A DNA stretch of 64,000 nt from Chroococcidiopsis sp. TS-821. GTDB taxonomy: Bacteria > Cyanobacteriota > Cyanobacteriia > Cyanobacteriales > Chroococcidiopsidaceae. A model generated the notes under the pieces. It searched no databases and was not told where the DNA came from. It worked only from the letters and a program-made list of their open reading frames with translations. Both the position numbers and the translations under genes were made by a program. Shown here in pieces: positions 29,026-35,506 of the stretch. Numbering within the stretch: the stretch's first letter is position 1; every line of letters starts with the position of its first letter. The DNA lies in assembly GCF_002939305.1 (NCBI RefSeq), contig NZ_MVDI01000012.1, positions 62,001 through 126,000 of the forward strand, written 5' to 3'.

Positions 29026-30237
29026 ATGTTACCGACTGATTTACTCACGCATCGATTGAATGGCGAATCAATTGTTCCGAAGCAATTAGCGATTGACGAT
29101 CGGAATTTAGAATTAGCAGCAGAGTTGATTGCTTGTTTCCAAGAATCAATTGGTAACTCTCAAGGCGAATTAAATGAAAAATTGCAATATTTTGAGGGTG
29201 ATAGTCCTGATTATCGCATTAAGCGTGGATTAGCGCATTTATTGAAAGGTTTGTGTGAATTTGAAGTTGTTAGCCCCTTAGAACCTCAAGTTTTGCGCGA
29301 ACGAGTCTTTAAGGTTGCGGCGCAAACAGTTCCTAGTACTTTTAATAGTCAACAAACTCTTAATAAGTTGGCATTACAACTCACGCAAGAGTTAAAACGG
29401 GAAGTTATTGCTGAGGAAATTCGTGTAGGATTGTATGCTGATTTAGCTGAAAATCGAATTCTAACTTCTTTTGATGCGCCTACGCCAGAGGAATTATTAC
29501 ATCGATATAACTTGTCTCAAGTGCAGGGAATTTTTTATAAGGCGAGTCATTTAACTATTAATGCACATCGCAATGTTCCTGGTCAATATAAGTTGTTATT
29601 TCGTTACTTGAAGTTATTTCAGTTAATGGCTTATATTGAAGGCGACGCGGAACACGGATTTACAATTACAATTGATGGACCTGCGAGTTTATTTAGTCCG
29701 AGTACGCGCTATGGACTAGCGATCGCTAAACTCATTCCCGCACTCTTACACGTTACTAAATGGAGTCTCAGCGCCACACTACAATTTCGTGACTTTTATA
29801 CAAATAACTGGAAAACAGGTCGTTTTAGTCTCGATTCTGAATGCGGTTTAGTATCGCACTATCCACCAGGTAAAACATACGATAGTATGCTCGAAGCTTC
29901 CTTTGTAAATCGCTGGGAAGCATTAAACACAAATTGGGTTCTAGAACGCGAAGTTGATTTAATTCCAATTCCTGGTAGCGTCATGATTCCCGACTTTCGC
30001 TTGGTACATCCCGATGGCAGAATATTCTTATTAGAAATTGTCGGTTATTGGCGACCTGAATATTTACAAAAGAAGTTCTCTCAAGTGCGTAGAGCGAATT
30101 GCGATAATTTAATCTTAGCAATCTCTGAACGCTTAAATTTAGAAAAAGCTGGAGTAAAACTAAACGATTGCCCTGCAAGAATTGTGTGGTTTAAAGATAA
30201 ATTACAACCCAAATCTGTATTATCTTTACTAGAATAA
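29026..30237 (+). CDS. DUF790 family nuclease (Bax1-like)
   Basis: A 403-residue DUF790 protein. Archaeal relatives (Bax1) are structure-specific nucleases that bind the XPB helicase. The start LLTHRLNGESIVPKQLA fits the family. The C-terminal part carries the PD-(D/E)xK-like core: PDFRLVHPDG, then ILFLLEIVGYW-like sequence (RIFLLEIVGYWRPEYLQKK) and NLILAISERLNL. A central block with DGPASLFSPSTRYGLAIAKL and LLHVTKWSL is also typical. It is preceded by the helicase gene on the same strand, and the pair very likely forms one DNA repair or defence machine. It is followed by a 324-base gap with hairpins. Confidence 0.9.
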   Translation: MLPTDLLTHRLNGESIVPKQLAIDDRNLELAAELIACFQESIGNSQGELNEKLQYFEGDSPDYRIKRGLAHLLKGLCEFEVVSPLEPQVLRERVFKVAAQTVPSTFNSQQTLNKLALQLTQELKREVIAEEIRVGLYADLAENRILTSFDAPTPEELLHRYNLSQVQGIFYKASHLTINAHRNVPGQYKLLFRYLKLFQLMAYIEGDAEHGFTITIDGPASLFSPSTRYGLAIAKLIPALLHVTKWSLSATLQFRDFYTNNWKTGRFSLDSECGLVSHYPPGKTYDSMLEASFVNRWEALNTNWVLEREVDLIPIPGSVMIPDFRLVHPDGRIFLLEIVGYWRPEYLQKKFSQVRRANCDNLILAISERLNLEKAGVKLNDCPARIVWFKDKLQPKSVLSLLE

Positions 30238-30561
30238 TTCATTCAATACTGATGCAATTTGAAGGCACTATTTTTGAATTTCTTGACTTCAGATTTTGCA
30301 CTTTCTCTCATTGCCTCAATAATCAATATTCCGTTAAAATGGAATAAAAAAATCTTACCAAGCTAGTCGGATTTATCCGACTTAAGCTATCAGCCAAGAA
30401 ATTAATTTCTTGGCGGTATGGTAATTTATACTAATTTGCTAATTATAAATCAGAAAGAAGCCGCAATCACTGTTTCATATATAAAAGCAATCTAACAAGC
30501 AGAATTAAAAGATATAAACCTTTCTCGCAGCGCTCTGAAACATCACATAAATGAAATACGA
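30238..30561. other. 324-base gap with two adjacent hairpins
   Basis: No gene is seen. The middle holds a hairpin pair (30362-30414, listed as a repeat). It lies between the convergent DUF790 gene and the minus-strand gene at 30562, so it may also end transcription from one or both sides. Confidence 0.5.
30362..30414. repeat. Double hairpin, possible dispersed structured repeat, copy 3
   Basis: The first stem is AGTCGGA (30365-30371) with TCCGACT (30376-30382). The second is a perfect GCCAAGAAAT (30393-30402) with ATTTCTTGGC (30405-30414). The linker TTAAGCTATCA and the paired-stem layout are like dispersed elements common in cyanobacterial gaps. Confidence 0.6.
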
Positions 30562-31125
30562 CTAAGCCACCTTGACTAGCATATTATGTTCTTTTGAGTC
30601 ATTAACCGAGCGAACAAGACTTATAAAAGAAGCTCCATCTTGGTAAGTTACATGAAATTTATTAGGTCTTTTTTTCAAGAATTTAACAGGGTACTTTTCT
30701 AATTTAAGTTCTTTCAAAACTGAGGACAAACTTTTACCATAAATACGGCAAAAGTGACTACCTACAACACAGACTGAAACGCTTGCCGTTTTTTTTTGGG
30801 CACACAAATCTGCTACCAAAGTAACTAGGCTATTTTCTAATTCTTCTTCAGTAAAAGTCACTTGCTTAGTTTTAGATTTAGATAACTTAGGTTGTTCAAT
30901 GACTTGATGATTTAGAGCGTCGATATGTTCTTGCAATTTCTGGTCAACGCGATCGCAGCGTTGATTGACAAGCTGCATTACTTCTTCCACGCGATCGCTT
31001 ATCAAATTGTTTTGAATTTGGAGTTTGTTAATCGCACATTGAGAGTCTTGTAAAGCTTCAACACCACTTTTTTCTGCCTGTTGTGTTTTTTTAATCACTA
31101 TTAATAATGCAGTAAAAGCAGACAT
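30562..31125 (-). CDS. Coiled-coil protein with C-terminal possible RNA-binding domain
   Basis: From the ATG at 31125 the protein has a hydrophobic start (SAFTALLIVIKK), a long coiled coil (about 15-80) and a Lys-rich link. A compact C-terminal domain (about 95-180) contains VVGSHFCRIYGKSLSSVLKE and PVKFLKKRPNKFHVTY. That domain has the look of an OST-HTH/LOTUS winged helix, an RNA-binding fold; this is a weak call from pattern only. The frame stays open upstream to a stop near 31250 and would encode LINVALTIVCTVGIAHTAIA, a good membrane segment, but with no ATG, GTG or TTG. So either the start is unusual or the gene is trimmed. It lies behind the HicA-like pair on the same strand. Confidence 0.55.
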   Translation of the reverse strand: MSAFTALLIVIKKTQQAEKSGVEALQDSQCAINKLQIQNNLISDRVEEVMQLVNQRCDRVDQKLQEHIDALNHQVIEQPKLSKSKTKQVTFTEEELENSLVTLVADLCAQKKTASVSVCVVGSHFCRIYGKSLSSVLKELKLEKYPVKFLKKRPNKFHVTYQDGASFISLVRSVNDSKEHNMLVKVA

Positions 31126-31325
31126 TAAACCGATATCTTTGGGTTTAGCGATCGCAGTGTGAGCAATACCGACGGTACAAACTATTGTAAGCGCAACATT
31201 GATTAGTTTCTGTTGGCTAATATGCGTAAAAGTTATTGTATAAATTTTCCTTTAAAGTTTAAAACTAGTTGATTGGTCTTTTTTGTAACGTACAGGAATT
31301 TATATTCAATCAACTCGATACGATA

Positions 31326-31643
31326 TTACTGCCAATACCCTAAATGAACCAACGCAGATTCAATAGTATTAACTTTCTCAACTAATGCAGTCCAACTTTT
31401 TGCTTTAATGCCGTAGATTTTTGCAAAGTGATTTTTAGCCGCCTTGAATCCACCAAGTTCGCGCTTCATGACAGCGATCGTCCAAGTTTTTCGTTTGGCT
31501 GATAGTGTAGGTTGATTAAAGGTATCCAGTTGCTCTAATATGCGCTCATGAGCCTGAACGAGTTCTGATGTAGCTCCTAAAATTTCAGAAGTTGTTCGAC
31601 GAGAACGCGCTACGTTATTTCGTATCCGTTGTGCAAGACTCAT
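31326..31643 (-). CDS. 105-residue hypothetical protein coupled to the HicA-like gene
   Basis: A helical, basic protein of 105 residues starting MSLAQRIRNNVARSRRTTSE. Its C-terminal half, KTWTIAVMKRELGGFKAAKN and HFAKIYGIKAKSWTALVEKV, may form a small helical nucleic acid-binding domain. I do not recognise a family. The ATG overlaps the TGA of the preceding gene as ATGA, and GGAGG lies eight bases upstream, so it is translationally coupled to the HicA-like coiled-coil gene. Both genes look cyanobacterium-specific. A longer frame from 31664 is not supported by a ribosome site. Confidence 0.65.
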   Translation of the reverse strand: MSLAQRIRNNVARSRRTTSEILGATSELVQAHERILEQLDTFNQPTLSAKRKTWTIAVMKRELGGFKAAKNHFAKIYGIKAKSWTALVEKVNTIESALVHLGYWQ

Positions 31644-32314
31644 GAATTTTCCTCCGTCAGCCATTGAATTATTTGCTGTAGTTCTAGCCGTAATTTTGGT
31701 CTTAGCCGCCGCGAAAACCGAGTTAACTTTTCACCACCAACCTTAATCAGCAACTCCTGTTGCTCCACTTCCTCAGCAATCATGAGCATTTCTTTATCTT
31801 GTTGTGCTTTTTGCTGAATCAGGTTAGCAATTTCTTGTTTTAATCCTTCAATCCAACACTTTTGTCTGTAAATTTCCTTACTTAATTCTGCGTTCCTCGT
31901 TTCAGTTTCTGCTGCTAAATCAATGGCTGCTTCAACATCATCTTTTAATTTTTTATTAGTTGAATTTGCTTCTGCTAGCTGAACCTCAAGTTGATTGACT
32001 TTAGCTTTATAAAAATTTGAGACTTTTTGAAGCTTATTATTTGTGTTTATGTATTCCACATCATTAACCGAAGGCTGCTGTAGTGATTTAATGACTTTAT
32101 GTGCTGTACCGTTAGGAATAATTGCGCTATCTCTATGTCCTGGAATGGGAACGCTGGAATGTCCTTTTTTACAGGCTTTTAGTTGTTCTTTGCCTGCTGG
32201 TACAACTTCCCAACCATTGTTTATAGCAATTGCGACAATTTCTTTGCGAGTTACATTTCTACATATCTCACCTGTACGTCTACAAGATCTCTGTAGTGTC
32301 TCTTGTCGCCCCAT
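31640..32314 (-). CDS. HicA-like domain fused to a long coiled coil
   Basis: A 224-residue protein. Residues about 21-80 resemble HicA (YcfA), a small double-stranded-RNA-binding-like mRNase toxin: TRKEIVAIAINNGWEVVPAG, KKGHSSVPIPGHRDSAI and NGTAHKVIKSLQ match its helix, strands and last helix. The catalytic histidine of HicA (in G-S-H) is not there; the position reads GKEQLK. So it is probably a binding domain and not an active RNase. From about 95 to 195 it is a continuous coiled coil, ending in a basic patch (FSRRLRPKLRLELQQ). It overlaps the next gene by ATGA. No hicB antitoxin is seen nearby. Its role is unknown. Confidence 0.65.
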   Translation of the reverse strand: MGRQETLQRSCRRTGEICRNVTRKEIVAIAINNGWEVVPAGKEQLKACKKGHSSVPIPGHRDSAIIPNGTAHKVIKSLQQPSVNDVEYINTNNKLQKVSNFYKAKVNQLEVQLAEANSTNKKLKDDVEAAIDLAAETETRNAELSKEIYRQKCWIEGLKQEIANLIQQKAQQDKEMLMIAEEVEQQELLIKVGGEKLTRFSRRLRPKLRLELQQIIQWLTEENS

Positions 32315-32539
32315 GTATTTTCATCAATAAAGTTTTGACATAAAAGGTGGTTTCTTTCAAATTCAGACTATTGTTTAGATAGGTAAGTCTATGAGATTAT
32401 TTATGATGACTCAATATGGATTTCGAGAACTTTAAAATAACAGAAACATTATGTAGCGCGAGGTTGTATGTTCTGTCATACTTAATAAAATGGAAACTTC
32501 CGTATCTCTAATATCCATATTGAGACAACTATAAACTAT

Positions 32540-33118
32540 TTAATTGAAAGTTGGTTGTTGGGAAACTTCCTTATTTGAAAAGAGTGCTTTCAACTTCGTC
32601 TTAGCACTTCGATCTAAATAAAACATCTTATTAACAAATCCTTGTACTCCTTCTTTTGTACTGTTCAACTCTTGCTGAGTTTTTTGTAACTCTTCTTCAG
32701 TAGAAGATAATTGTTGCCGAAGTTGACTTAGCTCAATTTGAGCTTGCTGTTCTTGTTGCTGAGCTTGCTGTAATTTAGCATCAAAATAAGACTGGATTTG
32801 AAGTTTATGTTGATGAGATTGTGCTAGTTGTTGTTGAGTTTGTTGTAATTGTTCTTGAGTAAAAGATAGTTGTTGCTGAAGTTGATTAAGCTCAATTTTA
32901 AGCTGTTCTTCAATTGAAACAGGTTTTTGTTCACTTACTTGTGACTTGATTGAATCTGGTTGTGACGATCCTTCTTGAGGAAGTTCACCATCTACTAATT
33001 GTAGTCGTCCTTGTGTCCAGTATTGATAAACAATAGTTGTACCAGCTGCGAGTACTCCAGAAATAGCGACACCATTAATTAGGTAGGTTAAAGTATCCTG
33101 AATCAGTTGATATTGCAT
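32540..33118 (-). CDS. Membrane-anchored Gln-rich coiled-coil protein
   Basis: A 192-residue protein with one N-terminal membrane segment (about 13-32, YLINGVAISGVLAAGTTIVY), a short polar stretch, and a Gln-rich coiled coil from about 68 to 160 (for example QLQQQLSFTQEQLQQTQQQL). The basic tail (DRSAKTKLKALFSNK) is short. The coiled coil consists of near-repeats of LQQQLSxTxEELQxTQQEL, which suggests internal duplication. I do not recognise a family. It lies upstream of the HicA-like gene on the same strand with a 225-base gap, so co-transcription is uncertain. It may act as a membrane scaffold. Confidence 0.6.
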   Translation of the reverse strand: MQYQLIQDTLTYLINGVAISGVLAAGTTIVYQYWTQGRLQLVDGELPQEGSSQPDSIKSQVSEQKPVSIEEQLKIELNQLQQQLSFTQEQLQQTQQQLAQSHQHKLQIQSYFDAKLQQAQQQEQQAQIELSQLRQQLSSTEEELQKTQQELNSTKEGVQGFVNKMFYLDRSAKTKLKALFSNKEVSQQPTFN

Positions 33119-33448
33119 TTTTCAATTCCTTTAATAGAATCTACTTTATTCTTGCCGATGGGAATTAATTAGCTTATTGAAAAATATTATAATTTTTGAA
33201 GTAGAATCAATTCCGTTCGATAGTTTCATCTTAGGAACTAGAACTTTGAACTACCACAGTGTAATTACTAATTAAAATTTAAAAGAAGAATAAAGTATAA
33301 TTGCTATTTTTAAACGAACTTTATCAAGTTTTAAAGCATAGCAAAAGTACTATTATGAATTTTATGCGAAGTAGAGATCTAACTGTGTTGTGGTAACAGT
33401 AATCTTACGGAAGTATATTTTGCGTGCGATCGCATTTACAATACTGCA
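33119..33448. other. 330-base AT-rich gap
   Basis: No gene or clear RNA is seen. It holds the promoter region of the minus-strand coiled-coil gene and the 3' flank of the ribonuclease gene, without an evident hairpin-T terminator. Confidence 0.4.
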
Positions 33449-35506
33449 CTAATTAGCCGCCTGTTGCGCTTCCGAATAAGTGACTTCCTGAAACTGCAAC
33501 ACGTCTTGACGCGGATCGACGTAGCTGACTTTTACTGATACCTGTTCGCCTATTTTAACGCCACGTTTGAAAACCATTGGTAACTGCAATCCCAAGTCTT
33601 CAATCAAAATCAGTGCCAAACGGCTATCTTCGCGCAGCCACATCAGTACCAATGCTTGCCAAACTTGATTAGGATGACGACGTAGATATTCTAATCCCCA
33701 ATAGCGGTTAGTTTGTCGTTCGACCAATGTCGCTTCTTGGGTTGCGGTCGATACACTTAACATGAGTTCTTGAATTTGTTCGCTAGAAAAAGGAGGCGTT
33801 TCACCGCGTAAGTGGGCTTTTAGTTGAAAATGCGTGAGGAGATCTGTGTAGCGACGAATTGGCGAAGTCGCTTGCGTATAAGTTGCTAATCCTAAGCCGG
33901 CGTGACGCGTGGGTGTAATACTCATCTCGCTTTTAGGCATACAGCGGCGCATTGCACAAGCGCGCGCGAAGCCTGCGGGTAATTGCATTAACTCTTCATC
34001 TGAAGGTAATTCGGGTTGTGGTTGACCGCGAAATGGCAACGCAATTTTATGAACTTGCGCGTAATGTCCTGCAACTTCGCCTGCTAAGATCATCATCTCG
34101 GCGACCAACTGGCGCGCTGGAGAATCATTTAAGACCTTGATCGTAATCTCGTCGTCTTGAACTTTGATAATAGCTTCGGGTAAGTTAATGCTAATTGCGC
34201 CTTGCGATTGCCGCCACTGTTGACGACGTTGGGCTAAGCGCGCGATCGCGGCAATTTCCGGTTCTGCTTCTACCCCCAATTCCAACATTTCGTCTACATC
34301 TTCGTACGTTAGACGATACGTCGGTTTAATCAAACTTGGATGAATACTGTACTCTTGTACAGCGCCTGATTCATCTAAAACAACACCAAAACTTAAAGCA
34401 CAGCAAACTTTTCCCTGCAACAAACTCATTGGTCCTGTTGCTAATATTGAGGGAAACATCGGGATCATTCCCGTTGGCAAATACACTGTTGTCCCCCGCC
34501 GCCGTGCGTCTAAATCAAGTTCATCTTCTGGCAATAACCAGCGCGTCGGATCGGCAATATGAATCCACACCTTTTGACGTCGATCGGGTAGCAATTCCCA
34601 ACTGATGCCGTCATCAATTTCGCTCGTACTTTGGTCGTCAATTGTGTAAACTTTATGATGAGTTAAATCGAGGCGCTGATCGACATCAGGTGGTGGAGAA
34701 TCCATACGCTGTTGAGCCACTTCTAACACCTTGGTAGGGAACTGAACCGCAATTTGGCTGCGCCTTAGAAATAAATTTTCGTGAACACTCCAGATCCCCA
34801 AATCTACGAGTAGCTGAAAAGCTGCTTGCGGCGTAGCGGCACGTCCCAAAGTATTCATGGTTTCTACCACAGAAGCTGGTGGGGCATAAGTACGCGCTAG
34901 CGAGTCTGGAGTTACCCCGGAACGCACGCCTTCTGCTAGTAGTGTCGCATACTTTTCTAACATCTCGATGCGTTGGCGATCTTGGCGACTCCATTCCACT
35001 GTTTCACCTTTGATCGCTTGCGCAACGCGTGCGAGAAATTCTTGTTGTTCGCGTTGGCGGTTGACTTCGACTTCGATTTGGTGTTTTCGTTCAGCGACTT
35101 GCGCTGCGCTTCGTGGTTCGTAGCTGTCGCCCTTTTGCTTAAAGTAGAGCTTATCATCTGAAAGCAAGCAGTGGGCAGCATAACACTGTGGCGGATTTTG
35201 TTCAGCGAATAACAGTGTCGCCATTTGTGCAGGATTGACGGTTTCACCGCTTTCTACAAGCAATTCCCAGGCGACTTCTAAGCTTGCAGGATCGAGGTAT
35301 GTCTGTACTTCTGCCAAAAACTGGGGAATTTCTCCTGGTTGGAAGGTTTGACCGGAAACTTGATAGGTAATTTGTCGCGGCGCTAGACTATGCGTTGAGC
35401 CGCGTTCGTCTACAGCAATCCAGCGTGATTTGCCATCAGGACGATCGACAACTCCAAGTCGGCGATCGCCTTGTACCCTAAATTCGACTAGCGTTCCCTT
35501 TTCCAC
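33449..35506 (-). CDS. RNB-family exoribonuclease (RNase II/R type)
   Basis: A 3'-to-5' exoribonuclease of 685 residues; E. coli RNase R has 813 and RNase II 644. The RNB catalytic domain (about 265-585) shows the metal-site sequence TIDDQSTSEIDDGISWELL, then HIADPTRWL, LPTGMIPMFP and the late YTQATSPIRRYTDLLTHFQL. The N-terminal cold-shock-like part is shortened, and the C terminus ends in an S1-like strand set (GEQVSVKVSYVDPRQDV). It follows rpmG and rpsR on the same strand, an arrangement I know from other cyanobacteria, which suggests a role in rRNA or ribosome-related RNA processing. The gap after rpsR is 135 bases. Confidence 0.93.
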   Translation of the reverse strand: MEKGTLVEFRVQGDRRLGVVDRPDGKSRWIAVDERGSTHSLAPRQITYQVSGQTFQPGEIPQFLAEVQTYLDPASLEVAWELLVESGETVNPAQMATLLFAEQNPPQCYAAHCLLSDDKLYFKQKGDSYEPRSAAQVAERKHQIEVEVNRQREQQEFLARVAQAIKGETVEWSRQDRQRIEMLEKYATLLAEGVRSGVTPDSLARTYAPPASVVETMNTLGRAATPQAAFQLLVDLGIWSVHENLFLRRSQIAVQFPTKVLEVAQQRMDSPPPDVDQRLDLTHHKVYTIDDQSTSEIDDGISWELLPDRRQKVWIHIADPTRWLLPEDELDLDARRRGTTVYLPTGMIPMFPSILATGPMSLLQGKVCCALSFGVVLDESGAVQEYSIHPSLIKPTYRLTYEDVDEMLELGVEAEPEIAAIARLAQRRQQWRQSQGAISINLPEAIIKVQDDEITIKVLNDSPARQLVAEMMILAGEVAGHYAQVHKIALPFRGQPQPELPSDEELMQLPAGFARACAMRRCMPKSEMSITPTRHAGLGLATYTQATSPIRRYTDLLTHFQLKAHLRGETPPFSSEQIQELMLSVSTATQEATLVERQTNRYWGLEYLRRHPNQVWQALVLMWLREDSRLALILIEDLGLQLPMVFKRGVKIGEQVSVKVSYVDPRQDVLQFQEVTYSEAQQAAN

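Follow-up and report, generated by a model that had tools for sequence, protein, structure and literature searches.

Two overlapping minus-strand genes, B and C, in a 64,000-nucleotide stretch of Chroococcidiopsis sp. TS-821 DNA (the window, on contig G000:C12 of the 5.23-Mb source genome, G000) belong, on sequence comparison, to a genuine but undescribed two-gene family spread across cyanobacteria. B carries a HicA-like head on a long coiled coil, and C encodes a small basic partner. This small partner occurs in about one-quarter of sampled cyanobacterial genomes, yet the pair has no family name. We propose, with about even confidence, that B–C represents, with its HicA head, one form of a two-gene operon that recurs in cyanobacteria. 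The two proteins would be obligate partners in a heteromer, shaped as a rod or filament, by which nucleic acid is tethered, and the adjacent genes A and D are possible accessories.

All four minus-strand open reading frames (A–D, Table 1) were recovered where the first-pass annotation had placed them, and each is conserved as a protein in both congeneric genomes, G067 and G085 (identities of 95/81% for A, 91/82% for B, 93/89% for C and 83/79% for D). This conservation, together with purifying selection on A, B and C, indicates that the frames exceed chance. Pairwise dN/dS values for A, B and C are ∼0.16–0.5, compared to 0.06–0.10 for the flanking genes, arguing that these three genes are coding and constrained but fast-evolving. 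One C pair gives 0.71, a value resting on just 3.5 synonymous changes. For D, the corresponding range is 0.32–0.88.

The four genes are collinear on one strand in all three available congeners (G000, G067 and G085), keeping the same order between rnb and bax1, with protein identities of 79–95%. Three sister-genus genomes (G017, G102 and G119) instead have rnb and bax1 adjacent, with a gap of ∼80–190 bp. The occupied site in the congeners and the empty site in the sister genus show that A–D constitute a ∼3.2-kb insertion at a defined position. The GC content of the four-gene stretch is 0.36–0.37, versus ∼0.45 over most of the window. The group had been described as lying next to a helicase–nuclease pair. 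That pair is real (an XPB-type helicase and DUF790/Bax1), but it adjoins rnb with or without the insertion and is thus conserved background outside the group; we ruled it out as a partner. Searches of the insertion gave no Rfam match for an RNA gene and no promoters or terminators above shuffled expectation, and its repeats fall mainly within the Gln-rich codons of A. Between D and bax1, a stretch at ∼30360–30430 contains two palindromes (AGTCGGATTTATCCGACT and GCCAAGAAATTAATTTCTTGGC). G000 and G067 have this stretch and G085 lacks it; it may be a terminator or a mobile element of small size.

Table 1. Features of the insertion and its flanks, in window coordinates
Feature	Coordinates	Strand	Description and basis
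Insertion	30238..33448	.	AT-rich, genus-specific; carries A-B-C-D; present in G000, G067, G085, absent from sister-genus G017, G102, G119
A	32540..33118	-	192 aa; Gln-rich coiled coil with a hydrophobic N-terminus; known from this genus only
B	31640..32314	-	HicA-like head and long coiled coil; 224 aa
HicA-like head of B	32069..32257	-	Residues 20-82; Glu43 at the HicA catalytic His position; profile, Pfam on 10/11 heads, fold match to 6g26
Coiled coil of B	31712..32113	-	Residues 68-201; single continuous predicted helix (~134 residues); AlphaFold2, pLDDT mostly >90
C	31326..31664	-	112-aa basic partner from an unnamed family found across the class; 25-bp overlap with B
Three-helix domain of C	31344..31484	-	Residues 61-107; conserved around Trp91; alignment and AlphaFold2 model
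D	30562..31236	-	Hydrophobic N-terminus, helical stretch, C-terminal OST-HTH domain; ATA in the window at the ancestral start codon (31234-31236)
OST-HTH domain of D	30640..30852	-	hhalign to NYN-OST-HTH repeats, E=2.9e-13; relative L022 passes Pfam OST-HTH cut-off
bax1/DUF790	29026..30237		Flanking gene, convergent with rnb
rnb	33449..35506		Flanking gene (RNase II), convergent with bax1

A profile search placed the C family in 107 of 390 sampled cyanobacterial genomes (69 of 390 in an earlier profile round). We read the neighbourhoods of 51 C loci, leaving some weaker C matches from the 107-genome search unread. A coiled-coil gene lies directly upstream of C in 50 of these 51 loci, at gaps of −137 to +121 bp (within 40 bp in 45 of the 50). 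The exception is the Synechococcus elongatus-like genome G149, in which the B-type gene is ∼1.5 Mb from C, unlike G130, also S. elongatus-like, where B and C are adjacent (L141 and L210 with L142). A distant C paralogue elsewhere in the source genome (G000:C2, ∼514.3 kb) and a C relative in G036 each sit directly downstream of a coiled-coil gene. Beyond genus-level synteny, the neighbourhoods read contained no recurrent neighbour other than the pair itself.

No family in Pfam, NCBIfam, PHROG or PADLOC covers the coiled-coil-plus-C pair, in line with the first-pass view that the group is undescribed, and the pair genes are labelled ‘hypothetical protein’ in the annotated records that we saw. 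Recognition of the pair makes its function directly testable, including in tractable organisms: annotated pairs, with translations checked, are SYNPCC7002_RS14990/RS14985 on plasmid pAQ6 of Picosynechococcus PCC 7002 and AVA_RS27490/RS27495 on plasmid A of Trichormus variabilis ATCC 29413. PCC 7117 has a further pair on its chromosome, and PCC 7002 may have one too.

Four types of partner are found upstream of C. Type 1 partners contain a ‘FERRSKAGIKGWETRRKRENERLKQEI’ segment, type 2 partners a ‘RRSRGSLQSWNxRYR’ segment, and type 4 partners a ‘RFRSATDFPKTI’ head and a ‘PQMYTDPASxxRSLLDR’ tail, all three types lacking a HicA head; such a head defines type 3, to which B of the window belongs. 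By hhalign, homology of C extends across the types (E=5.5e-18 to type 1 and 1.8e-8 to type 2). Homology of the B coiled coil to the type 1 and type 2 partner coiled coils was not demonstrable. When 49 C proteins were placed in a tree, type 1 formed one well-supported branch and type 4 another, and the type 2 proteins grouped with less support. Type 3 is split between two positions: one is the clade of the window and thermophile-like C proteins (97/87), and in the other the C proteins of G130 and G149 group with type 4 (100/96). Partner-type labels require 4 changes on this tree, compared to 26.9 in shuffles. Thus C clades follow partner type: the partners have mostly moved as a unit, apart from a single exchange of head or partner. 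In four loci (L205, L206, L209 and L215), the type 4 pair lies directly downstream of psbA, which encodes the photosystem II D1 protein, and in L215 aroC lies on the other side of the pair. In Nostoc sp. MS1, plasmid pNSMS101 carries a type 1 pair (L053, 5242–6498) that precedes a type I-MYXAN CRISPR-cas operon.

The first-pass description of B as a fusion of HicA-like and coiled-coil parts is borne out by the Pfam matches of its relatives, the predicted helix and the fold match of the head. Full-length B of the window scores below the Pfam HicA cut-off (15.6 versus 27 bits), and the HicA_toxin model matches 10 of 11 heads (best E=1.5e-6). AlphaFold2 models the head as alpha-beta-beta-beta-alpha, with pLDDT mostly 85–90, and Foldseek superimposes it on HicA of the Burkholderia pseudomallei HicAB complex (6g26; probability 1.00, TM 0.79 by target). 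Dominance of the query by the long helix limits the Foldseek E value to 0.027. A search with residues 19–82 recovered the head in further genomes, nine of them outside the genus having the head, then the coiled coil, then C directly.

HicA toxins require the catalytic His of a GxH motif (PMC11594946). In our alignment, this position is Glu43 in window B and Glu or Asp in G130, G149, G184 and G242; the remaining aligned relatives, including several from thermophiles, have His. As judged from alignment and model, the head of B has a HicA-like (dsRNA-binding-type) fold but, in this organism, lacks the active-site residue that HicA toxins need. These observations bear on whether the pair could be a toxin–antitoxin module, with B a HicA RNase toxin held by a coiled coil and C its antitoxin. 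The HicA-like fold, the overlapping two-gene operon with a small partner and the retention of the catalytic His position in several thermophile relatives would all fit such a module. However, the loss of His from the window protein and from four relatives, a partner that is not HicB (no Pfam match, and modelled as helical), and the lack of a HicA head in three of the four partner types all weaken this reading, and we consider it highly improbable.

C is 112 residues long from the first ATG and 105 from the second, the latter being the length of the coupled basic protein noted at first pass; it is indeed basic (net charge +9) and overlaps B. The AlphaFold2 model of C comprises a long helix (residues 4–49, moderate confidence) and a three-helix domain (residues 63–107, pLDDT mostly >85). 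Foldseek found no relative of this model, and no Pfam or NCBIfam model names C. The C domain gave a single weak Pfam match each to HNH_repeat and NUMOD1 (E 0.013 and 0.036). We set aside its identification as an HNH-associated or NUMOD repeat, with one weak match to each, although these matches hint at a helix-turn-helix.

How might the two proteins work together? In the arrangement that we propose, B would be a long rod of coiled coil capped by a head of HicA fold; having lost the catalytic His, that head would bind RNA, or some other nucleic acid, and leave it uncut. C would add a helix that packs against this rod, along with a small, HTH-like head of three helices. The resulting heteromer, a rod or a filament, would tether nucleic acid to some second target. 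The Gln-rich coiled-coil protein A, with its possible membrane anchor, and the OST-HTH protein D, with its hydrophobic N-terminus, may be dispensable accessories, with D probably being lost. The partnership of B and C is supported by the 50/51 linkage, by the spread of C over 107 of 390 genomes and by C clades tracking partner type; the rod is suggested by the long helix in B and by the helix and three-helix domain in C. We infer nucleic-acid binding from the predicted fold (Pfam HicA matches to 10 of 11 heads and the 6g26 fold match), and binding without cutting from Glu43 in place of the catalytic His. Points against this reading are the moderate-confidence C model, which lacks a fold match, the Foldseek E value of the B head, the lack of demonstrable homology between the B coiled coil and the type 1 and type 2 partners, and the ∼1.5 Mb separating the two genes in G149.

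The strongest rival to a nucleic-acid-binding rod is, by analogy, a purely structural role like that of ZicK and ZacK of Anabaena, coiled-coil proteins that need each other to form heteropolymers (PMC7766704). On this account, B and C would be a pair of cytoskeletal coiled-coil proteins that do not act on nucleic acids, the HicA-like head having been remodelled as a protein-interaction domain. C is constantly paired with coiled-coil partners whose heads differ, and HicA heads are missing from partner types 1, 2 and 4, as would be expected of such a pair. Against this, the HicA fold has been kept in type 3 heads, several of which carry the GxH motif, and the C domain looks like a compact three-helix, HTH-like unit. 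We regard a purely structural pair as rather unlikely. The likeness to ZicK/ZacK is that both involve two different coiled-coil proteins thought to be interdependent. To look for identity with Slr7083 or ZicK/ZacK, plasmids were searched with a type 1 pair, and Nostoc sp. MS1 alone was recovered. A broader version of the nucleic-acid-tethering heteromer, which we consider unlikely, is a cytoskeleton-like nucleoprotein system, in which an obligate coiled-coil heteromer with exchangeable heads would organise RNA or DNA, the HicA fold being reused as a non-catalytic RNA-binding head.

HicA domains have been published in 14 genetic contexts, class 14 being an SMC protein with a C-terminal HicA (Gerdes 2024, PMC10865869). 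The arrangement seen here, a coiled coil that bears the HicA head at its N-terminus and has C as its partner, is absent from these 14. B resembles HicA toxins in fold and sequence but has Glu43 in place of the GxH His. The HicB partner of HicAB has a partial RNase H fold, whereas C lacks a Pfam HicB match and is modelled as all-helical. The pair thus adds a HicA-domain context, in which a coiled-coil scaffold has apparently co-opted a toxin fold as a non-catalytic head.

The first-pass annotation had grouped A, B, C and D as one candidate system and suggested a check of their co-occurrence. This check gave a split result: B and C are tightly paired class-wide, but A and D are found with them only in this genus. 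A itself, and the architecture of D, were found only in the three congeners. A contains 22% Gln and one hydrophobic stretch (residues 12–30, KD 1.63), which by its composition is a possible membrane anchor; no convincing relative of A was found outside the genus.

Might the four genes nevertheless encode a membrane-scaffolded RNA-binding complex, possibly in defence or RNA control, built in this genus around a B–C core? All four are retained, collinear and on the same strand in 3/3 congeners, A, B and C are under purifying selection, A and D both have hydrophobic N-termini, and B and D both have RNA-binding-type folds. On the other hand, A and D do not accompany B–C outside the genus, and D has lost its start codon in the window and has an in-frame stop in G067. 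The defence role proposed for the group fares no better: PADLOC models gave only coiled-coil noise (<20 bits), there were no matches in phage records or viral contigs to indicate phage origin, and neighbours other than the pair do not recur. We therefore rejected a defence system; the CRISPR-adjacent type 1 pair on the Nostoc plasmid is not a recurrent arrangement. A four-gene complex of this kind seems to us very unlikely, and we retain the B–C heteromer, with A and D as possible accessories, as the preferred reading.

The suspected OST-HTH-like domain of D was confirmed by comparison with cyanobacterial NYN proteins, whose C-terminal repeats it matches (hhalign E=2.9e-13). One of these relatives (L022) passes the Pfam OST-HTH cut-off and three pass the NYN cut-off. 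D alone has no Pfam OST-HTH match and no Pfam match to NYN/LK-nuclease. Hence, D shares a homologous C-terminal OST-HTH domain with cyanobacterial NYN-OST-HTH proteins (LK-nuclease/LOTUS; OST-HTH, PMC2848206) but, unlike them, lacks the nuclease domain and has a hydrophobic N-terminus and helical stretch. The D frame extends upstream to 31236, where G067 and G085 have ATG and the window has ATA, and D of G067 contains an in-frame TAA at codon 49 (L099, from 10732). With damage in two of the three species, D is probably in decay, or else its translation begins further downstream. Among the NYN-OST-HTH proteins, seven (L010, L014, L019, L023, L024, L032 and L033) start with an IS1 InsA-like zinc ribbon, which in L010 matches Pfam Zn_ribbon_InsA; these proteins join a zinc ribbon of the transposase type to a predicted RNase.
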